17,063 nucleotides of DNA from Anaerolineae bacterium (GTDB taxonomy: Bacteria > Chloroflexota > Anaerolineae > Aggregatilineales > Phototrophicaceae): NCBI GenBank assembly GCA_028284565.1, contig JANQRM010000411.1, positions 1 through 17,063 on the forward strand, read 5' to 3'. Shown here one piece after another: positions 3-13,896 of this stretch; the stretch's first letter is position 1; every line of letters begins with the position of its first letter. The notes under the pieces were generated by a model that made no database searches, was not told the origin of the DNA, and was given only the letters and a program-made list of their open reading frames with translations. The translations under genes and the position numbers were made by a program.

Positions 3-788
3 GGCTTTTCGCCCGTGTTTCCCGTATATCGGCTACAAATCGAGACACAAGTTACTCAGCAACTCACCGCACCCCTCAATTTCCGCTTCGCTACCGAAGC
101 CGATATTCCCCGTGTGGCGTGGCTCTATCAACAGCATTGGAGTCCCCGCGTCAGCTTCCAACGTGAACCTGCGCTATGGGGCTGGCGATTCCATGCCTCT
201 GGCGATTCTCTATGGGTTGCCGAATCTTCCTCTGGGGAGATTGAAGGCTACCTTTGGGAACATCCCTCACCCATGAATACGTCCGAAGTCGTGGTCAATA
301 CTCTCGGCGCGACCAAAACTATCTTGTCCTATTTGGGAGGGCAAGCGCAAGACCGATTTCAGGAGACGATAAGCCTCTTATCTCCACCAGACTCGGCGTT
401 GGTAGCGTTTGCTCAACAATTGCTCCCAACCCGACTCAGTGCCGATTTTCATCCCAGAGGCGGATGGATGGCGCGCGTGATGGACACGCAAGGACTCACC
501 CAAACTCTGCTTCCTGAAATTCGTCAACAAGCCAGCATGATGAATCCCAACTTGCCCACAGACCGCCTGCTACTAACCTGCGAACCGGACTCCGTACAAA
601 TCGGCTTGCGAGGCGAACCCGCAACCTTTTCCGCACTCAAATATCGGGATTTTATGCAGTTGATGTTCGGCTCCGTCCGTCCGATGACATTGGCATTCCG
701 CTTGCCTTTACTGCCAGAAGCAACCCAACTGTTGGAATGGTTGTTCCCACCACGCATCGCCACTCTCGCCGGATGGGATTGGTTCTAG
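3..788 (+). CDS. C-terminal part of an Eis-like (tandem GNAT plus SCP2-like) acetyltransferase, 5' truncated by the window
   Basis: The frame is open to the left edge. The GTG at 15 is probably internal, because the first visible residues (GFSPVFPVYRLQIE) look like the closing strand of one GNAT fold. After a linker, a second GNAT-like segment begins at about FRFATEADIPRVAWLYQQHW and continues through LWVAESSSGEIEGYLWEH. The last 80 or so residues (LLLTCEPDSVQIGLRGEPAT, then KYRDFMQLMFGSVRP, ending FPPRIATLAGWDWF) resemble the sterol-carrier-like C-terminal domain of Eis-type enzymes. Such proteins transfer an acetyl group from acetyl-CoA to amines; the substrate here cannot be named. The stop codon TAG (786-788) lies inside the CTAG that borders the adjoining cassette. 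The fold assignment rests on the general pattern of short segments, so the family call is moderate. Confidence 0.55.
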   Translation, partial: GFSPVFPVYRLQIETQVTQQLTAPLNFRFATEADIPRVAWLYQQHWSPRVSFQREPALWGWRFHASGDSLWVAESSSGEIEGYLWEHPSPMNTSEVVVNTLGATKTILSYLGGQAQDRFQETISLLSPPDSALVAFAQQLLPTRLSADFHPRGGWMARVMDTQGLTQTLLPEIRQQASMMNPNLPTDRLLLTCEPDSVQIGLRGEPATFSALKYRDFMQLMFGSVRPMTLAFRLPLLPEATQLLEWLFPPRIATLAGWDWF

Positions 789-806
789 TTGTACAATGCT
801 ACTTAG
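789..806 (+). repeat. Left terminal inverted repeat of the cassette
   Basis: TTGTACAATGCTACTTAG pairs with the complement of 2666-2683 with one mismatch at position 800. It starts immediately after the CTAG that contains the stop codon of the acetyltransferase gene. Confidence 0.75.
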
Positions 807-828
807 AGGTCTCAAAATCATCAATCAT

Positions 829-857
829 TTGCCCTATGAGGTGTTCCGACCTATCTT
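829..857 (+). promoter_or_regulatory. Candidate sigma-70 promoter of the M3 peptidase gene
   Basis: TTGCCC (829-834) and TATCTT (852-857) are separated by 17 bases. Transcription would start near 864, inside the cassette, so the gene would carry its own promoter. Both hexamers deviate from consensus, and the call rests on spacing. Confidence 0.35.
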
Positions 858-868
858 AATGCCTATAT

Positions 869-2620
869 ATGCTAAATATTTTTATGCCCGAGAGAAAATT
901 TGATATGACCAGCTTACCACAAGTTTTTGAAGTTGCCCGCGACTGGGCTTGGGATGTTTACGCACCTTATTATAAGGCATTGCAAGAGACTGAACTCAAT
1001 GAAAAGAACATAGAGGATTGGCTTAAACATTGGAATGACCTCTATTGTACACTAAGCGAGGTCAGGGTTGGTCTTGAAATACAAGCTGACCAAAATACAG
1101 CCGATGAAGAATCGCGACAAGACTATGCTGATTTTATGAAAGATATTTTTCCTAAGATGGAAGAATCGCAAATCAAGTTACAGAAAAAATTAGTCGATAG
1201 CGGTATTAGAGGGCAAGGACTTGACCCATTAATTCGGACTTTGCACGGGAAATTACAAATCTTTCGGGAAGAAAACCTTCCGCTCTTGGCTCAACAAGAA
1301 AAACTTGTCCAAAGCTATAACCAGATTATGGGCGCACAAACCGTACAATGGGAGGGCGAAGACGTTCCTTTACAGCGCATTTTCCCATATTTTCAAAGCC
1401 CTGACCGTAAGCTACGTGAAAAAGCAGAGCGTGTGCTTCAAGAACGTCGTTTACAGGACAAAGATAAGATTGATTCTATCTGGCGAGACTTGATGGATGT
1501 CCGCAAACAACTCTATGAAAATGCGGATATGGATAACTTCCGTTCTTATCAGTGGTTGCGTTTAGGGCGTGTGGATTATGAACCACAAGACGTGATTGAT
1601 TTTTGTGAATCTATTGAGAAAGTAGTCGTTCCAGTCGTCCAAAGTTTTCACGAGAAACGCCGTACAAAATTGGGCATTGATACACTACGCCCATGGGATA
1701 CGGCAGTTGACCTCGATGGTCGTGAGCCTTTGAAGCCATTTGAAACGATGGAAGAATTTATTGAAAAATCCAAATATGTTTTTAAGCATGTTGATCCTGA
1801 ATTGGGGCGACTGTTTGCAGAATTTCATGAAGCTGGCGGTCTTGATTTAGAGAATCGCAAGAACAAGACAGCCAGTGGTTATGCGAAAATGTTTGCGGTC
1901 AGCAAGACACCTTTTATCTTCATGCACGCTGTTGGGACAGAGGGCGATGTCAATATACTTTTGCACGAAACAGGACATGCCTTTCATAGAGTTTATATGT
2001 CTGAGCGATATATGATTGACAAATCTCATGGCTTACCGATGGAAATTGCAGAAGTTGCTGCAATGGCAATGGAATTATTGGCTGCTCCTTATCTGACAGA
2101 AGACTATGGCGGCTTTTTCAATGAAGTGGATACCACACGTTATCGCCTCAATCATTTAAAAAGCATTGTTAATATCTTGCCATTTATTGCAAGCGGGGTA
2201 TTGTTTCAGCATTGGATTTATACCCATCATGAGCAAGCCAGTGACCCTCAAGCCTGTGATGAAAAGTGGGTGGAGTTACAAATGCGCTTTTTCCCAGATA
2301 TAGATTATGAGGATTTAGAGCCATATTTGCGGAATTCTTGGCGTAGAATTGGTCATTTTTTCTGGTCACCATTTTTTGCGATAGAGTATGCTATGGCACA
2401 ATTGGGCGCAATACAAATTTGGGCAAATGCACTCAAGGACCAATCTGCCGCTTTAGAAGCCTATCGTAGTGCTCTCAAGCTAGCCTATAGTGTCCCTCTG
2501 CCAGAACTTTATGAGATAGCAGGAGCAAAATTTGCCTTTGATGTAGCGACAATTAAAGCGGCTGTTGATTTACTTGAGCAAACCATTGAAGAATTTGAAG
2601 AAATCGTTGATGCAAGCTAA
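869..2620 (+). CDS. M3 family oligoendopeptidase (zinc metallopeptidase)
   Basis: This 583-residue cytoplasmic peptidase hydrolyses short peptides, probably in peptide turnover. The zinc site is plain: H366-E367-T-G-H370 within ILLHETGHAFH, and E395 in EIAEVAAMAM. The gap of 25 residues from the second His to the Glu is the same as in thimet oligopeptidase. The stretch HFFWSPFFAIEYAMAQLGA near the C-terminus is also typical of bacterial M3 enzymes, and the length is right for the family. There is no signal peptide. The start is uncertain: ATGs at 869, 884 and 905 are in frame and none has a strong ribosome site; 905 would begin MTSLPQVFE. It is the only gene in the putative insertion cassette and is visibly richer in A+T than both neighbours. 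The enzyme class is secure. Confidence 0.93.
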   Translation: MLNIFMPERKFDMTSLPQVFEVARDWAWDVYAPYYKALQETELNEKNIEDWLKHWNDLYCTLSEVRVGLEIQADQNTADEESRQDYADFMKDIFPKMEESQIKLQKKLVDSGIRGQGLDPLIRTLHGKLQIFREENLPLLAQQEKLVQSYNQIMGAQTVQWEGEDVPLQRIFPYFQSPDRKLREKAERVLQERRLQDKDKIDSIWRDLMDVRKQLYENADMDNFRSYQWLRLGRVDYEPQDVIDFCESIEKVVVPVVQSFHEKRRTKLGIDTLRPWDTAVDLDGREPLKPFETMEEFIEKSKYVFKHVDPELGRLFAEFHEAGGLDLENRKNKTASGYAKMFAVSKTPFIFMHAVGTEGDVNILLHETGHAFHRVYMSERYMIDKSHGLPMEIAEVAAMAMELLAAPYLTEDYGGFFNEVDTTRYRLNHLKSIVNILPFIASGVLFQHWIYTHHEQASDPQACDEKWVELQMRFFPDIDYEDLEPYLRNSWRRIGHFFWSPFFAIEYAMAQLGAIQIWANALKDQSAALEAYRSALKLAYSVPLPELYEIAGAKFAFDVATIKAAVDLLEQTIEEFEEIVDAS

Positions 2621-2665
2621 GTGATTCAACAAAAGTATTAATACTGAGTAAAGTGGATGAAAACC

Positions 2666-2683
2666 CTAAGTGGCATTGTACAA
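2666..2683 (-). repeat. Right terminal inverted repeat of the cassette
   Basis: Read on the minus strand this is TTGTACAATGCCACTTAG, matching 789-806 at 17 of 18 positions. It abuts the CTAG at 2684-2687 that contains the stop codon of the minus-strand WD40 gene. Confidence 0.75.
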
Positions 2684-3673
2684 CTAGTTGTCGTCGCTTA
2701 CACCCCAAAAGCGCACCGTCTCATCCAAGCCCGAAGTCGCAATCAACGTCCCATCAGGACTAAATGAAACCGACAGAATCCAGCCAAAATGTCCACCAAG
2801 AGTCTGTAATAACTCACCGTTTTCGACATCCCACAAGCGCAAGGTGCTATCGTATCCCACCGAAGCCAACAACTGTCCATCAGGACTAAACACCACCGCG
2901 CTAATCCCATTCCGATGTCCCGCTAGCTCATGAATGACTGCGCCCGTTTCCAGATTCCACACTTGCACATTTTTCAGAAAATCCGATGCAACAAGGGCTT
3001 GTTCCGGATGAACTGCCAGCGCACGAATCCCTGTCTTATGTCCTTCAAACGTAAAAACGCGCGCACCTGTTTCAATATCCCACACGCCGACCTTGCCATC
3101 CAAACTAGCTGACAAGAGCTGTGTACCGTCGGGTGTGAATGCGACGACTTGTACTGTTTTGTCATGTCCCTCCAACATGCGATAAGGACGCATTGCTTCG
3201 GGATTCCACAGCCAGATTTCGTTATCTGCACCACTCGATGCGACCATCGGCTCGGTTGGATGATAATCGACTGTCCATATCCACCGGCGGTGTCCGGGGA
3301 TAGTCTCTAGCAGATGACTCGACGAGTTGTCCCAGATGCCCACCCTCTGGTCGATACTGCCAGACGCGAGCGTTGTTCCGTCAGGTGAGACGGCAACTGT
3401 CGTCACGGGGTCGAGATGCCCAGCCAGCAAATCGGGCGGTTTAGCCAAATCATCACGGAAATATCGCCAGATTCCTGAATTTCCCGCCATGAGTATCGTC
3501 GCGCTGTCTGGAGTCCAAGCCATATCAAAAATCAACGGCTCCGCTTGTATCACGGCGAGTTCTTGTACTTGCGCGGCATTATCAGGGGTAATAGGCGTAT
3601 CTGTCAGTTGGGCAGATAAAGGAAGCAACCCAATAATGAGCAAGAGTCCCATCAACCAGAGTTTATATTGCAT
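2684..3673 (-). CDS. Secreted seven-bladed WD40 repeat protein
   Basis: The 329-residue product begins with a signal peptide (MQYKLWLMGLLLIIGLLPLSAQ), so it should act outside the cytoplasmic membrane. It is followed by one divergent blade and six clear WD40 repeats opening with GHLD, GHRRW, GHDK, GHKT, GHRN and GHFG and carrying SPDG turns and closing WD-type pairs (VGIWD, LWLWN, VGVWD, VQVWN, LRLWD, VRFWG). Seven blades make one complete propeller with nothing added. Such domains are binding scaffolds and no catalytic function is visible. ATG at 3673 is preceded by AAGG with 8-base spacing. The gene diverges from the sulfur-oxidation fusion gene, with about 100 bases between them. Its TAG stop lies in the CTAG at the edge of the M3 cassette, which suggests it was originally convergent with the acetyltransferase gene. 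Confidence 0.9.
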   Translation of the reverse strand: MQYKLWLMGLLLIIGLLPLSAQLTDTPITPDNAAQVQELAVIQAEPLIFDMAWTPDSATILMAGNSGIWRYFRDDLAKPPDLLAGHLDPVTTVAVSPDGTTLASGSIDQRVGIWDNSSSHLLETIPGHRRWIWTVDYHPTEPMVASSGADNEIWLWNPEAMRPYRMLEGHDKTVQVVAFTPDGTQLLSASLDGKVGVWDIETGARVFTFEGHKTGIRALAVHPEQALVASDFLKNVQVWNLETGAVIHELAGHRNGISAVVFSPDGQLLASVGYDSTLRLWDVENGELLQTLGGHFGWILSVSFSPDGTLIATSGLDETVRFWGVSDDN

Positions 3674-5183: not shown

Positions 5184-6050
5184 TCAATCGTTGCGAAAAT
5201 GCTTACTCACCAAGCGATTCACGCGGTCTGGCTCCGCACCATAGGCTTGCAGGAGGGTTGTTCCATCTTGAATGAGAGTCAGCGCAAAGAGCAAATGGTC
5301 TGCCCCGACGTAATGATTGCCCAATCGAGATGCTTGGGCGACGGCTCCTTGTAAGACCACTTCGACATTCACGAGCGTATCGTCGTGTTGGTGATGGAGA
5401 CCTTGCTTGAGTAGCATCTCATCCAGCCCACTTTGCCGAAGGATTTGCGTACACACGCTCCGACGCTCCTTCACTAAAGCCATCAGCAGATGTCCCAAAC
5501 CCACCGATGGATGGTCAAGTGCAATTGCCATCTGTTCGGCGGCATACAGCACCCGCTTGCCAATCTCACTCAGGCGCGCATTCTGTCGCACCCGATGCAG
5601 GCTGAATTCCGTCTGCCCAGTTTGAAGCGCGAGGCGAACCCGTCGGCGCAGTTGTTCAGGTGTAATATCGACTAATTTCAGGAAACGTACCGCATTCCCC
5701 AGATTGGCGCGCGTAATCCCCAAGAGTAGATGTTCGGTGCCGATATAATGAGTCCCCAGCCAACTCGCCTCATCATCTGCAAAAGCAAGGGCTTGCTCAA
5801 AGGATTCATCGGGATATATGTCAATCGGAGTGTCTTGCTGGGGCAATAATCGCTTCAGATAGACTTTGGCACGCTCTTTGTCGAGGTCGAAGCCTTTCAT
5901 CACCGCTGCCCCGATACTCCCATCTGTCAACAAGACTCCCACGAGCAAATGTGCCGTATCCTGATGAATATGCGCGTAAGCAGTCGCCAACGACTCTGCA
6001 TGAAAGAGTGCGCGACGGGCATGGTGGCTATAGCGGTACGAATTTGCCAT
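5184..6050 (-). CDS. Stand-alone Clp-N repeat protein without ATPase domain
   Basis: The product of 288 residues has two Clp-N domains built from four half-motifs: DTAHLLVGVLL (31-41), GTEHLLLGI (104-112), GLGHLLMAL (184-192) and GADHLLFAL (249-257). No Walker motifs are present. In ClpA/B/C this domain receives substrates or adaptors, so a free copy may be an adaptor, decoy or ligand sensor; that is inference. The longer frame starting with TTG at 6119 is unlikely, because that TTG is part of the -35 box; ATG at 6050 begins right at the domain (ANSYRYSHHARRALFHAES). There is no Shine-Dalgarno sequence before it. The gene diverges from the LuxR/ATPase regulator with 186 bases between starts, and its 5' end is duplicated at 10394-10511. 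Confidence 0.8.
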   Translation of the reverse strand: MANSYRYSHHARRALFHAESLATAYAHIHQDTAHLLVGVLLTDGSIGAAVMKGFDLDKERAKVYLKRLLPQQDTPIDIYPDESFEQALAFADDEASWLGTHYIGTEHLLLGITRANLGNAVRFLKLVDITPEQLRRRVRLALQTGQTEFSLHRVRQNARLSEIGKRVLYAAEQMAIALDHPSVGLGHLLMALVKERRSVCTQILRQSGLDEMLLKQGLHHQHDDTLVNVEVVLQGAVAQASRLGNHYVGADHLLFALTLIQDGTTLLQAYGAEPDRVNRLVSKHFRND

Positions 6051-6089
6051 AGAAAGGAGGTCATTCAGACACGTATCCAAGTCGCTTGT

Positions 6090-6119
6090 ATTATAGGCGA
6101 GGGCGCGATTGCCTGACAA
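6090..6119 (-). promoter_or_regulatory. Sigma-70 promoter of the Clp-N gene
   Basis: On the minus strand TTGTCA (6119-6114) and TATAAT (6095-6090) are separated by 18 bases, close to consensus. Transcription would start near 6083, leaving a leader of about 33 bases. The same two boxes are preserved in the copy at 10479-10508, while two base differences fall in the spacer between them. Confidence 0.7.
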
Positions 6120-6197
6120 GCGGATAGTCCTTTACTGATGATTAGGTGAAATGGATAGAACTATATTGTCATAAATGAAGATATGCCTTGACTACGA

Positions 6198-10306: not shown

Positions 10307-10346
10307 GACACCATCAAATTTGAAATTGGTGGTGTCTATTTTTATT
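10307..10346 (+). terminator. Rho-independent terminator of the small membrane protein gene
   Basis: GACACCATCAA (10307-10317) pairs with TTGGTGGTGTC (10326-10336), an 11-bp stem with one G-U pair and an 8-base loop, followed by TATTTTTATT. Its T tract overlaps the end of the minus-strand gene remnant. Confidence 0.75.
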
Positions 10347-10511
10347 CGGCATCCTCGTCGCGTTGTAGTTCATTGCTCCTGCCTCTTCATAGTAGAGTGC
10401 GCGACGGGCGTGGTGACTATAGCGATACGAATTTGCCATAGAAAGGAGGTCATTCAGACACGTATCCAAGTCGCTTGTATTATAGGCGAGGGCGCAATCG
10501 CCTGACAAGCG
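10342..10511 (-). pseudogene. Chimeric remnant: promoter and 5' end of a Clp-N gene fused to the 3' end of a DUF4157 gene
   Basis: Bases 10394-10511 match 6005-6122 (promoter, leader and first 15 codons of the Clp-N gene) at 113 of 118 positions with no gaps. The three differences in the coding part are all silent third positions. Weaker similarity runs about four codons further. The adjoining 10342-10383 then reads, in another minus frame, GRSNELQRDEDAE and stop, matching the C-terminus [13 protein letters not shown] of the DUF4157 protein at 13001-13828; 29 of 33 bases agree in the best stretch. The Clp frame runs into the DUF4157 part out of frame, so no sensible protein results. The likely origin is a deletion or recombination between two minus-strand genes. 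The promoter boxes remain intact (10479-10508), so it could still be transcribed. Confidence 0.75.
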
Positions 10512-10849: not shown

Positions 10850-11434
10850 ATGAAAATTCGTTTAACAATCCTTCTTTTTATCTGTATCAGCATAGTTGCC
10901 TCAGCGTTTGAGGTCGAACCCAGCCCCTTCCTGCCCGATTTACAATCCATCACCCTCGATAATGTGAGCGAACTCCAAGAACTGAACACGCTTGGCTTGG
11001 GGATGATTTCGGATTTGGCATGGTCACACGATGGACACTATCTCGCTGTCGCCAGCTCCGTCGGCATTTTGATCTATGAGAATGGCAATTGGTCGAAACC
11101 GATACGACGAATCGAACCCGCTGTAGAGGATATTGACATTCAATTCAGCCATGATGACTCACAGATATTTGCGATTCCTGAAAAGCGGACGTTCTGGGGC
11201 AGTCCCGATGAAGGCGATTTGGGAGTCTTTGATATTACAACAGGTGAATACGATACCCTGATTCCTGATTTCACCACCCATGCAGACAATGCGATTTTCA
11301 GCCCAGACGGACGCTTTATCGCACGAGTACGTCCAACCGCACCCGAATCCTCAGCTAGCACGATTGACCTAACAAACCTTGCAACAGGTGAGACTCAAAT
11401 TGCATCTGAAAGCTTGGCGAAATCTGGCACCTAG
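10850..11434 (+). CDS. 5' fragment of a frameshifted secreted beta-propeller gene
   Basis: The 194-residue reading starts with a signal peptide (MKIRLTILLFICISIVASAF) and continues into WD40-like strands: LGMISDLAWSHDGHYLAVAS, FSHDDSQIFAIP, NAIFSPDGRFIARV and a NLATGETQIAS closing strand. It stops at TAG 11432-11434 after SESLAKSGT, in the middle of a blade. The protein-like sequence continues without pause in the next frame, so this is the front part of a gene that covers 10850-12966 and would encode about 705 residues. The ribosome site is weak (GGA about 10 bases before the ATG). If the frame break is real, the fragment would be an incomplete propeller and probably unstable. Confidence 0.75.
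   Translation: MKIRLTILLFICISIVASAFEVEPSPFLPDLQSITLDNVSELQELNTLGLGMISDLAWSHDGHYLAVASSVGILIYENGNWSKPIRRIEPAVEDIDIQFSHDDSQIFAIPEKRTFWGSPDEGDLGVFDITTGEYDTLIPDFTTHADNAIFSPDGRFIARVRPTAPESSASTIDLTNLATGETQIASESLAKSGT
11410..11431 (+). other. Frameshift site joining the two propeller fragments
   Basis: The downstream frame has a TGA at 11407-11409, so the change of frame must lie between 11410 and the TAG at 11432. The downstream frame then reads GEIWHLAYRPHHNQ, a proper propeller strand. A single missing base fits, for example one G in GGCGAAATC, which would restore SLAEIWHLAYRP. No canonical slippery heptamer is present. Confidence 0.75.
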
Positions 11435-11508
11435 CTTACCGTCCACATCACAATCAACTTGTTTTCCTACTCAACACCTTCACCCCTGATGATACTCGTC
11501 TTCGTCTG

Positions 11509-12966
11509 ATGTTTATGGAACTCGACACGCTCGACATCGTCAGAGAATGGGAACTGCCTAAAGGTACGTACCATCATACTTTTTCGATAAGTGGCGACGG
11601 AAATACACTGGGTCTCCTCGTCGAAGAGAACCCAAGAGCTTATGATACTATTCAAGTCGAACTTTGGGATATTGAAACGCAAACACTTGAAGGCACAGAA
11701 TGGGTCGGCGCAACGGATAACTTGTTTCACCCATTTGAATATAGAATTCAGTTTCAAATCAATGGGGATGCAACTCAACTGACCTTTTTTGAATACACTG
11801 GACCCGGTACAAGCTTCTATGTGTGGGATGTCGAGGATGATAAGGGGTGGACTTCATATGATGAGATTGAAATGTCACTTGGTGAAAAAACAACTTGGCA
11901 TCCTATCAACTCGTCCCAACTCATCGGGCGTACCGTGTATAACGGCATCATCTTATGGGACGGCGAAACCAACTCCTTTGAGGTATTAATTCATGGAACT
12001 CGCTTCATGGATAGGGGCGTGTTAGATGAAACTGGGCAGAATTTATGGATTGGTGGTTCACGTTTTGGGTCTAATCAACTTTACAATTTACACACAGGTG
12101 AACGGCTCCTTGATGAGGATTTAGGCTATCTAAAAGCGTGGCATCATGAGACACAATTGGGTGCATTCTATGTTGATAGACAAACGATTGAGATTCAGCA
12201 TATGGAAACAGGCGACCTCATCACCACCATTGGCGACGGACGCGATAGCTTCTATGATGCCCAATTTGTCGAAAACGGAACTATCTTGGCAGTCCATGTC
12301 TATCCCAATTTGCAAGCCTATGATGACGAGGATTTGAATCGTTGGGATACGGTGCGTTTCTATGACGTGCAATCGGGTGAAGTTGTCATACGTTTTCGTG
12401 GGAATGGTGGACCCACCACACGCTATCGACTGCGAATTTTGCAATCCAAATACTTGGCAGGCATGAGAGGTTATTATGCAATTCAAGAGATTCTGGCACA
12501 AGATGTCTTTCATGAATGGGATTATTATGACGACACAGAATGGCTGTCTGGTGAAGTCTTGGCGATGAGTTCCGATGAGCGTGTGGTTGCAACCACCTTC
12601 TTCCCCGACGATAAACCGAATGGTTCAGGCATTCGAGTATTTGATGCCACTACACAAGAACTCCTCTATGAATTCACCGACCATGACGGCGAGGTGCTGA
12701 GTCTCAGTTTCAATGTGAATAGCACAATCTTAGCATCAGCCAGTGGCAGTGGGAGTTACTCTGGAGGCGAGAATTCTGTCCGCTTATGGGACATGACCAC
12801 CGGGGAATCGTTGGGCGTGTTGGATATCTTTGATCAAGGTTATATGCGCGAGGTCATCTTCACATCTGGTGGCAAGACACTCATTATCATCATGGGTGGC
12901 TGTCCTTGTGAAGGCTATGGCTTTGATAGCTATGTCAAATTGTGGGGCATTCCATTAGACGACTAA
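11509..12966 (+). CDS. 3' fragment of a frameshifted secreted beta-propeller gene
   Basis: From the first ATG in this frame the reading has 485 residues, but coding character begins upstream at about 11413, so the ATG at 11509 is probably internal. It contains a series of WD40-like or propeller blades: VELWDIETQTLEG, FYVWDVEDD, GIILWDGETNSF, VRFYDVQSGEVVIRF, IRVFDATTQELLYEF and VRLWDMTTGESLGVL, ending VKLWGIPLDD. The sequence SLSFNVNSTILASASG is a clear blade motif. Together with the 5' fragment this gives about 705 residues, enough for two propellers. Two cysteines in GGCPCEG near the end stand out. It shares its overall style with the secreted WD40 protein at 2684-3673 but is much more divergent. 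It is convergent with the DUF4157 gene. Confidence 0.8.
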   Translation: MFMELDTLDIVREWELPKGTYHHTFSISGDGNTLGLLVEENPRAYDTIQVELWDIETQTLEGTEWVGATDNLFHPFEYRIQFQINGDATQLTFFEYTGPGTSFYVWDVEDDKGWTSYDEIEMSLGEKTTWHPINSSQLIGRTVYNGIILWDGETNSFEVLIHGTRFMDRGVLDETGQNLWIGGSRFGSNQLYNLHTGERLLDEDLGYLKAWHHETQLGAFYVDRQTIEIQHMETGDLITTIGDGRDSFYDAQFVENGTILAVHVYPNLQAYDDEDLNRWDTVRFYDVQSGEVVIRFRGNGGPTTRYRLRILQSKYLAGMRGYYAIQEILAQDVFHEWDYYDDTEWLSGEVLAMSSDERVVATTFFPDDKPNGSGIRVFDATTQELLYEFTDHDGEVLSLSFNVNSTILASASGSGSYSGGENSVRLWDMTTGESLGVLDIFDQGYMREVIFTSGGKTLIIIMGGCPCEGYGFDSYVKLWGIPLDD

Positions 12967-12992: not shown

Positions 12993-13000
12993 ATTAATTG

Positions 13001-13828
13001 CTAGTCCTTATCATCGTCGCGTTGGAGTTCACTGCTCCCGCCCTGTTGGACGACGTGTGTGAGTTCATGCGCGAGGAGTTCTTGTCCCGATGAGCTGTTC
13101 GGGTTGTATTCGCCATCACGGAAGAAGATGTCGCTTCCGGTAGTGAAGGCGCGGGCATTGATTTGACGATTTAGGGTGTCGGCTTCTGCGCCGGTGTGGA
13201 TATTGACATTGCTAAAGTCTTGTCCCATCCGTGAACTGAAGAAGTCCTGTGATTCATTCGACATGGATTGCCCATTGCCTTGCTTGCTATTGATGGTGTT
13301 TTCGAGGTCTTCCGTGACTTCGGGAACACCTGCTCCTTCCCGTTGGATGAGCTTGCCTTGAAGCATTTCCTCTTCTTCCATCTCACCCATGCGCTGGATG
13401 TCATTAGCAGGCTTCATCATGAGTTCCTCATCTTCCTCTTCCATCCGTTGGATGGGTTTGAGTTGGAGTTCCTCTTCTTCCTCTTCACCAATTCGCTGGA
13501 TCATCTTGCCCTGAAGCATGTCCTCTTCTTCCATCTCGCCCATCTTCTGGACATCGGGCATGGTCATGACTTGCTTGGCAACATCATCGGCTTCTTGTTC
13601 GTAGGCATCATCTGGCTCACCGACGGTCAGCTTGGCTTGAATGACACCCCCGCCAGCCATAGGCAAGCGTCCTTCTGCAAGGAGGCGTTGCACGGCTTGA
13701 TTGCCGATGGTTTGCTGGAGTTCCATGATGTCATCATGCACCGGATTTGGTTTCCGGGATTGCTTGGGGAGTTTGGATGAATCATACTCATTTTGCAGGT
13801 TGGAATGTGAGTACATGCGATCAGACAT
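13001..13828 (-). CDS. DUF4157 (eCIS-core type) protein with acidic repeats and HExxH motif
   Basis: ATG at 13828 was chosen over GTG at 13831 because GGAGG (13840-13836) sits 7 bases before it. The 275-residue product has the three-part layout of DUF4157 proteins: an N-terminal [17 protein letters not shown] motif; [17 protein letters not shown]; then four acidic units of the type [17 protein letters not shown]. The C-terminal core has [39 protein letters not shown] and [10 protein letters not shown], with H254, E255 and H258 forming a zinc-peptidase-like motif. There is no toxin domain and no signal peptide. The domain is known from proteins linked to extracellular contractile injection systems, but none of the structural genes of such a system are in view. 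The first and last acidic units are nearly identical at the base level, which points to recent duplication. Activity is unproven for the family. Confidence 0.88.
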
Positions 13829-13896
13829 CACATTTCCTCCGAACTTGGCTTGCCAGATAGTTCCATTGTAGCAGAAAAATGCGTTTCAGAGTCCAT
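13828..13896 (-). CDS. Possible 22-residue leader ORF coupled to the DUF4157 gene
   Basis: On the minus strand GGAGG (13906-13902) precedes ATG (13896-13894) by 5 bases. The frame encodes 22 acidic, Ser-rich residues (beginning [16 protein letters not shown], ending EEM) and stops with TGA at 13830-13828, which overlaps the ATG of the DUF4157 gene as TGATG. Such overlap is typical of translational coupling. Against it, a candidate -10 box at 13865-13870 lies within this frame, and short frames with chance signals do occur. Confidence 0.3.
13865..13873 (-). promoter_or_regulatory. Candidate extended -10 promoter of the DUF4157 gene
   Basis: The minus strand reads TGC then TACAAT, an extended -10 pattern, and would start transcription near 13858, about 30 bases before the ATG. 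No good -35 is seen. It conflicts with the small coupled frame at 13828-13896; only one of the two may be right. Confidence 0.4.

Follow-up and report, generated by a model that had tools for sequence, protein, structure and literature searches.

The interval 789–2683 of the analysed DNA, a stretch of 17,063 nucleotides hereafter called the window, is in all likelihood a non-autonomous mobile insertion cassette in which ends of the IS701 family enclose no transposase but the gene of an M3 oligoendopeptidase. The unit has two matching ends flanked by a four-base duplication and an intact cargo frame, it holds no transposase, both neighbouring reading frames are intact, and its ends resemble those of real IS701 elements. 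An earlier note on this DNA had proposed a cassette architecture, and the likeness to IS701 elements from its order and class supports it. The window seems to be a complete contig, as its M3 protein, P0001, is recorded on one of 17,063 bases. Its uncultured host probably belongs to the order of Chloroflexota that includes CFX9, OLB13 and Phototrophicales CP2_20G, represented here by 154 genomes; the MBL-rhodanese protein of the window has its nearest match, 64% identical, in CFX9 (9 and 12 genomes searched).

Anatomy of the probable cassette

Two inverted repeats of 18 bp, differing at one position, lie directly inside two copies of CTAG, as the earlier note had described. The left repeat, TTGTACAATGCTACTTAG, occupies 789–806 on the forward strand and is assigned as an IS701-type end from its sequence, the repeat search and its profile rank, and the right repeat, TTGTACAATGCCACTTAG, occupies 2666–2683 on the reverse strand and is assigned in the same way, with an additional match in another genome (G097, see below). 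Partial pairing of the left repeat extends as far as position 814, and the repeat search returned arms of 30 nt (785–814 and 2658–2687) with a complementarity of 87%. Scanning the window for the 18-mer with up to 3 mismatches gave 2 matches, which are the two repeats, against a mean of 0.02 in shuffled sequences. The two CTAG copies, at 785–788 and 2684–2687, are the putative target duplication; the direct repeat happens to reach 8 bp (CTAGTTGT, 785–792 and 2684–2691).

The cassette measures 1,895 bp and carries one passenger gene. A leader (807–904, forward strand) connects the left end to the start codon of a complete frame of 571 amino acids (905–2620, forward strand), identified as an M3 family oligoendopeptidase with the zinc-binding motif HETGH by its reading frame, Pfam, TIGR02289 and alignment, and a trailer (2621–2665, forward strand) leads from its stop codon to the right end. 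Outside the gene and the ends 143 nt remain, and these show no likeness to the IS701 loci of the order with which they were compared. Neither the open reading frames nor a Pfam search revealed an IS701 transposase inside 789–2683, so that the unit is not an autonomous IS701 element, and the M3 gene is the sole cargo, in agreement with the description of the element as transposase-less. Three features of a mobile insertion cassette are found here together: two bracketing inverted repeats, a passenger gene without a transposase, and the target-site duplication CTAG.

Probable insertion site and neighbouring genes

The upstream reading frame (15–788, forward strand) terminates with the TAG of the left CTAG; it is the C-terminal part of a GNAT acetyltransferase gene that runs off the contig start. 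This part has no Pfam match of its own and was recognized by its homolog P0121, a full-length acetyltransferase from a 31.5-kb contig that is 92% identical to it and has the Acetyltransf_9 domain. Both P0121 and P0122 end in WDWF. Acetyltransferase homologs occur in 15 of the 154 genomes of the order, and we examined 12 loci; leaving aside L162 and L164, for which the wrong frame had been read, the C-terminus reads WDWF in 7 of 10 and LDWF, WDWS or LNWM in the others, with the stop codon following next, and two loci (L166 and L168) read TGGTTCTAG at the gene end, the same as the window. Because the acetyltransferases of these relatives stop at the same place, the TAG within CTAG is very probably the native stop codon. 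The right CTAG contains the stop codon of a WD40 beta-propeller gene on the other strand (2684–3673, reverse strand; reading frame and Pfam), which thus terminates in the same tetranucleotide. The insertion would have duplicated the shared stop of two convergent genes, and neither frame is broken.

The earlier note had looked to a relative in which the acetyltransferase and WD40 genes are joined through a single CTAG. No such junction was seen in the 12 acetyltransferase loci, whose homologs are 28–44% identical to the window's; a visual inspection limited to the ends of long frames showed no WD40 gene beside any of them.

Probability of a chance arrangement

To estimate how often such an arrangement arises by chance, we used 1,400 dinucleotide shuffles of the window and counted inverted repeats of 18 bp with one mismatch spanning 0.3–4 kb. 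Such a repeat alone appeared in 63 of the 1,400 shuffles (16 of 300 in a smaller run), and the combination with a 4-bp direct repeat just outside appeared in none (0 of 1,400; 0 of 300 in the smaller run), as did the combination with four further paired bases (0 of 1,400). Because CTAG is its own reverse complement, these four bases could equally lengthen the inverted repeat to 22 bp. IS701 relatives carrying the non-palindromic duplications CTAA or TTAG speak for reading the flanking CTAG pair as a target duplication and not as an extension of the repeat.

The G+C content of the M3 gene is 41.9% (GC3 0.364), compared to 54.0% and 51.6% in its two neighbours, and the difference from the flanks reported earlier is thus real. 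Low G+C values occur in further genes of the window as well (39.7%, 43.7% and 45.5%), and composition alone is therefore weak evidence for an insertion.

IS701 elements of the order and class

Searching with the IS701 transposase model NF033540, we found matches at E ≤ 1e-3 in 50 of the 154 genomes of the order, 7 of them over the cut-off, and matches at E ≤ 1e-60 in 38 of 396 genomes of the class. From 29 IS701 loci of the class, 12 cut by a contig end were left out and 17 were examined. An end pair with a 4-bp duplication was recognized in 11 of the 17, and in 10 of these 11 loci the duplication is YTAR (CTAA, TTAA, TTAG or CTAG) and the ends start with TACTACA; the 4-bp repeat of the remaining one (L188) belongs to an unrelated palindrome. 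Three loci (L171, L180 and L194) had no believable end pair, and the first two are also cut. Among the seven loci of the order, only L109 has a perfect duplication, CTAG, at both ends. In four others (L103, L104, L105 and L107) the ends are readable and TA lies nearby, with no perfect duplication, L108 is a divergent element also lacking one at believable ends, and L106 has no good end pair; a perfect duplication at believable ends is thus missing in 5 of 6 elements, the divergent one included.

With the IS701 family the cassette shares the 4-bp duplication and, as judged by a profile of the class's own ends, the terminal sequence. The IS701 elements with a YTAR duplication are 1.40–1.51 kb long (11 measured) and contain the transposase, whereas the cassette is 1,895 bp long and lacks it. 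In the available part of a published survey, the IS701 terminal consensus is given as ---YACT-Y--YR, which its authors consider not representative of the whole family, and almost all IS701 elements surveyed have 4-bp duplications (PMC2266710). The cassette ends fit this consensus at 6 of 7 positions. For Geobacillus members of the family, duplications of 4–9 bp are stated in the accessible text of another study (PMC8024623).

The main profile was built from 24 ends with their 4-nt flanks, taken from 12 elements, none of them from the window or G097. It ranked the two ends of the cassette as the top two places in the window, the right one with a score of 14.1 and the left one second with 13.2, the next best place scoring 6.9. 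The profiles benefit from the flank, and a YTAR duplication had been the reason for choosing 11 of the 12 elements. Elsewhere, in 865,929 bases from other loci, 14.1 was reached at 4 places and 13.2 at 5, each place in a different locus. Since true IS701 ends scored 14.5–31.0 in a leave-one-out analysis, just above the scores of the window, the cassette ends are divergent; ends from two genomes of the same order, G097 and G080, scored from 10.0 down to –0.9. The cassette ends may represent a divergent branch of IS701-type ends, similar to those of G097 and G080. A profile of 10 ends from the order, built without G097, assigned 22.3 and 18.6 to the window ends, values reached by 0 and 1 places in the 865,929 bases, and in two profiles without flanks the right end ranked first in both and the left end third in one and second in the other.

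As a control, we inspected five PF01609 (IS4/IS5-type) loci of the order, three of which have clear ends: AGAAGCCATTTGAA, GAGGCCATTTGAA and CAGGGTAATCGCTTC, none like those of the cassette. The element ending in CAGGGTAATCGCTTC has a 10-bp duplication, and in the other two, which we take to be IS5-like, TA adjoins the end; the cassette thus shares its ends with neither of the IS5-like elements that could be read. IS701-type ends with a fitting YTAR duplication, as proposed in the earlier note, are supported by the terminal sequence, which the profiles rank highly, by the CTAG duplication, which matches the YTAR pattern of 10 of the 11 class duplications, and by the different ends of the control elements.

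YTAR contains the stop codons TAA and TAG, so that insertions can fall on gene ends. We surveyed the frames flanking 12 IS701 elements (L109, L170, L172, L173, L176–L179, L184, L185, L189 and L190). In four of them (L176, L178, L185 and L189; 4 of 24 flanks), an open frame of 149–460 codons stops exactly in the flanking TAR. An open frame of 191–415 codons runs up to 4 of the 12 elements in another frame and may be interrupted; two of these four also have a frame that ends in TAR. The counts suggest that IS701 elements insert at stop codons, although the coincidence is suggestive only, because insertions that disrupt genes would be selected against, which also favours gene ends.

Matching ends in other genomes

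A near-identical copy of the right end was found in G097, a genome of another species, where 23 of 24 nucleotides agree with positions 2663–2686 of the window. This single end lies about 0.2 kb from a truncated IS701 transposase (residues 152–361 of 363, in a frame of 227 amino acids). The place came from an order-wide pattern search with 2 mismatches, which gave 40 places in 27 of the 154 genomes versus 49 places for the reversed control, so most of these matches are due to chance. A widened pattern, TARTTGTACAATGCNRSTTAG, with at most 1 mismatch matched only G097 among the 396 class genomes (2 places; 1 place for the reversed control); it had been widened after G097 was seen, and its matches there are thus not independent. 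The worth of the G097 match would accordingly lie in the adjoining transposase and in the widened pattern matching no other genome of the class. The search of relatives for pairs of these ends, proposed in the earlier note, gave one near-identical end close to an IS701 fragment and no second complete pair, and so bears out the proposal in part.

No second copy of the cassette and no element with these ends on both sides was found in the 154 genomes of the order, the 396 of the class, or the public and viral contigs. The exact 22-mer including CTAG (one N) was absent from public genome contigs, and the exact 18-mer (one N) from viral contigs. Other candidates were discarded. One viral contig (L198:1217–1237), which came from an exact match to a looser pattern, has CTAG followed by an IS701-like end with 1 mismatch to the window repeat, with no partner and no transposase seen, and chance is a plausible explanation. 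Five of 20 examined matches of the order-wide pattern (TTGTACAATGCGTCTTAG or TTGTACAATGCTTCCTAG) have a constant outer sequence and seem to represent one conserved locus, not element ends. In 866 kb of M3 loci, the place most similar to an end lies 73 nt past the M3 gene of L016, apparently within the start of the next gene; it has no partner, and we ascribe it to chance.

A repeat some 100 bp long is common to two contigs of G097, C20 and C232 (L135:3030–3127 and L138:1486–1587); it resembles the cassette end at its beginning, where TTGTACAATG follows TAA or TAG. It is perhaps a miniature element using IS701-type ends; a partner end was not found in the two contigs.

The peptidase and its relatives

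The M3 protein matches PF01432 with 121.5 bits (cut-off 27) and TIGR02289 (M3_not_pepF) with 435 bits, which is under the curated cut-off of 442.35. Residues H354, E355 and H358 are invariant in 18 aligned sequences, the window's included, and HETGH lies in a block of conserved columns. Among the best 120 of 3,596 matches, two metagenome proteins stand close to the window's own protein (P0001), P0002 with 87% and P0003 with 80% identity, and all others are at most 50% identical. A tree built from 60 of the 120 places the three proteins in one clade (100/100), whose branch measures 0.87 and whose neighbour is the long-branched P0044 (98/92).

An M3 gene is present at E ≤ 1e-100 in 83 of the 154 genomes of the order, none above 48% identity. 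With M3 genes so widespread in the order, the identity of the cargo proves nothing by itself. The other M3 oligoendopeptidases of the order belong to the same family and are 35–48% identical to the window's among the matches listed; unlike the window's gene, they lack bracketing repeats as far as they were checked. Of 80 M3 loci drawn from public genomes, 77 could be checked over 300 nt on either side, and none has repeats like those of the window; in the closest case (L058), the repeats differ at 2 of 18 positions and no duplication accompanies them. A relative with the M3 gene at this very place and without the repeats, which the earlier note would have counted against the cassette, did not appear: repeat-less M3 genes were found only elsewhere, at 34–44% identity. 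In plasmid records, M3 relatives occur in 31 records, every one below 60% identity.

Proposed mechanism and alternative explanations

Movement of the cassette would depend on a transposase supplied in trans. An IS701 transposase produced from another locus in the cell would attach to the two cassette ends, excise the cassette or copy it, and integrate it at a YTAR site, and filling in of the 4-nt stagger would produce the CTAG duplication. The site used here would be a CTAG holding the overlapping stop codons of two convergent genes, with both frames kept. Judging from the sequence, such a transposition presumably took place; the cassette may still be mobile, and the peptidase may be of some benefit to its host.

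Three other explanations deserve consideration. That an inverted repeat formed by chance around an ordinary resident M3 gene is extremely improbable: a repeat of this quality does arise by itself in some of the shuffles, but none of them reproduced it with the duplication, both ends match a profile built without them, which contradicts chance, and the boundaries coincide with the stop codons of both neighbours. It is also quite unlikely that the ends are those of an IS5-group element with an IS5 transposase as the helper. A YTAR duplication is indeed stated for IS5 insertions in the available part of the literature (PMC10359306), in line with the TA beside the ends of two PF01609 elements of the order, but the PF01609 elements have the different termini given above, readable in only 3 of the 5 loci, and the closest match to a cassette end adjoins an IS701 transposase fragment. 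The explanation that comes nearest to the cassette, though we consider it improbable, is that the unit is a relic of an autonomous IS701 element or a larger transposon that, once inserted, lost its transposase by deletion or replacement; the unit in its present form would then never have moved. It agrees with the cassette explanation on the ends and differs only in what moved. The single copy in 17 kb, the missing partner element in viral contigs, genome contigs and the 396 class genomes, and the difference between the two ends at 1 of 18 positions would fit a relic; the perfect duplication, the intact state of both ends and the M3 frame, and the 143 nt bearing no likeness to the IS701 loci compared argue against it. 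We therefore favour the mobile cassette.

Relation to known cassettes

The cassette principle has been known since MIC231A1, and it is the combination of IS701-type ends with an M3 cargo that seems new. MIC231A1 of Bacillus cereus (MIC231, adp) is described, in the part of the source available, as a transposase-free element whose passenger is a D-stereospecific endopeptidase and which is mobilised in trans by the IS231A transposase (PMC3913671). It resembles the unit of the window in combining insertion-sequence ends with a passenger gene and no transposase, and even in its peptidase cargo, so that the view of an oligoendopeptidase as unusual cargo is only half right: the M3 cargo differs, but the first described cassette also carries a peptidase. 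By its name, the adp product is probably not an M3 peptidase. The ends and helper of MIC231 belong to IS231, a subgroup of IS4, whereas the unit of the window has IS701-type ends; trans-mobilisation is reported for MIC231, whereas the present unit is known from its sequence. IS4 members have duplications of about 10 bp according to the accessible sections of the survey (PMC2266710).

The mic elements with qnrD (Proteeae) or qnrS2 (Aeromonas) likewise have inverted repeats around a passenger and no transposase, and the qnrD element has a target duplication, which is CA, 24-bp repeats with six mismatches, and a resistance cargo; the sections of their description at hand mention no link to IS701 (PMC3913671). 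In the same sections, described mobile insertion cassettes have IS231 or unassigned ends and, apart from adp, carry mostly resistance genes (PMC3913671). According to the available part of the 2008 survey, no passenger modules had by then been seen in elements other than those of the IS231 group, possibly because systematic searches were lacking (PMC2266710). We found no IS701 cassette and no M3 cargo in the open-access papers seen, some of them in part, which is a weak negative.

That an uncultured bacterium has a housekeeping-like peptidase on an IS701-type cassette suggests that ordinary genes, too, travel on small cassettes of this transposase-free kind. Such cassettes would be overlooked because nothing inside them is annotated as mobile, and the end profile (YTAR followed by NNNTACA, in inverted pairs with no transposase between them) makes a systematic search possible. 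More speculatively, and in our estimate with the odds against it, IS701-type cassettes could constitute a 'silent' route of gene shuttling in Chloroflexota, with the M3 lineage P0001–P0003 a travelling and not a resident gene family. If so, a CTAG common to two convergent stop codons would allow a cargo gene to be added without breaking either neighbour.

Other features of the window

The segment 10338–10511 is a mosaic of two gene-end fragments, in which 10383–10511 repeats the start of the Clp_N gene (5994–6122) with 93% identity and 10338–10383 repeats the end of the eCIS-core gene (12997–13042) with 78%. The latter gene (13001–13831, reverse strand) encodes a protein with an eCIS core domain (PF13699) and glutamate-rich tandem repeats. 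A beta-propeller-like gene at 10850–12966 is apparently split into the frames 10850–11434 and 11509–12966, perhaps as a pseudogene or through an assembly error.
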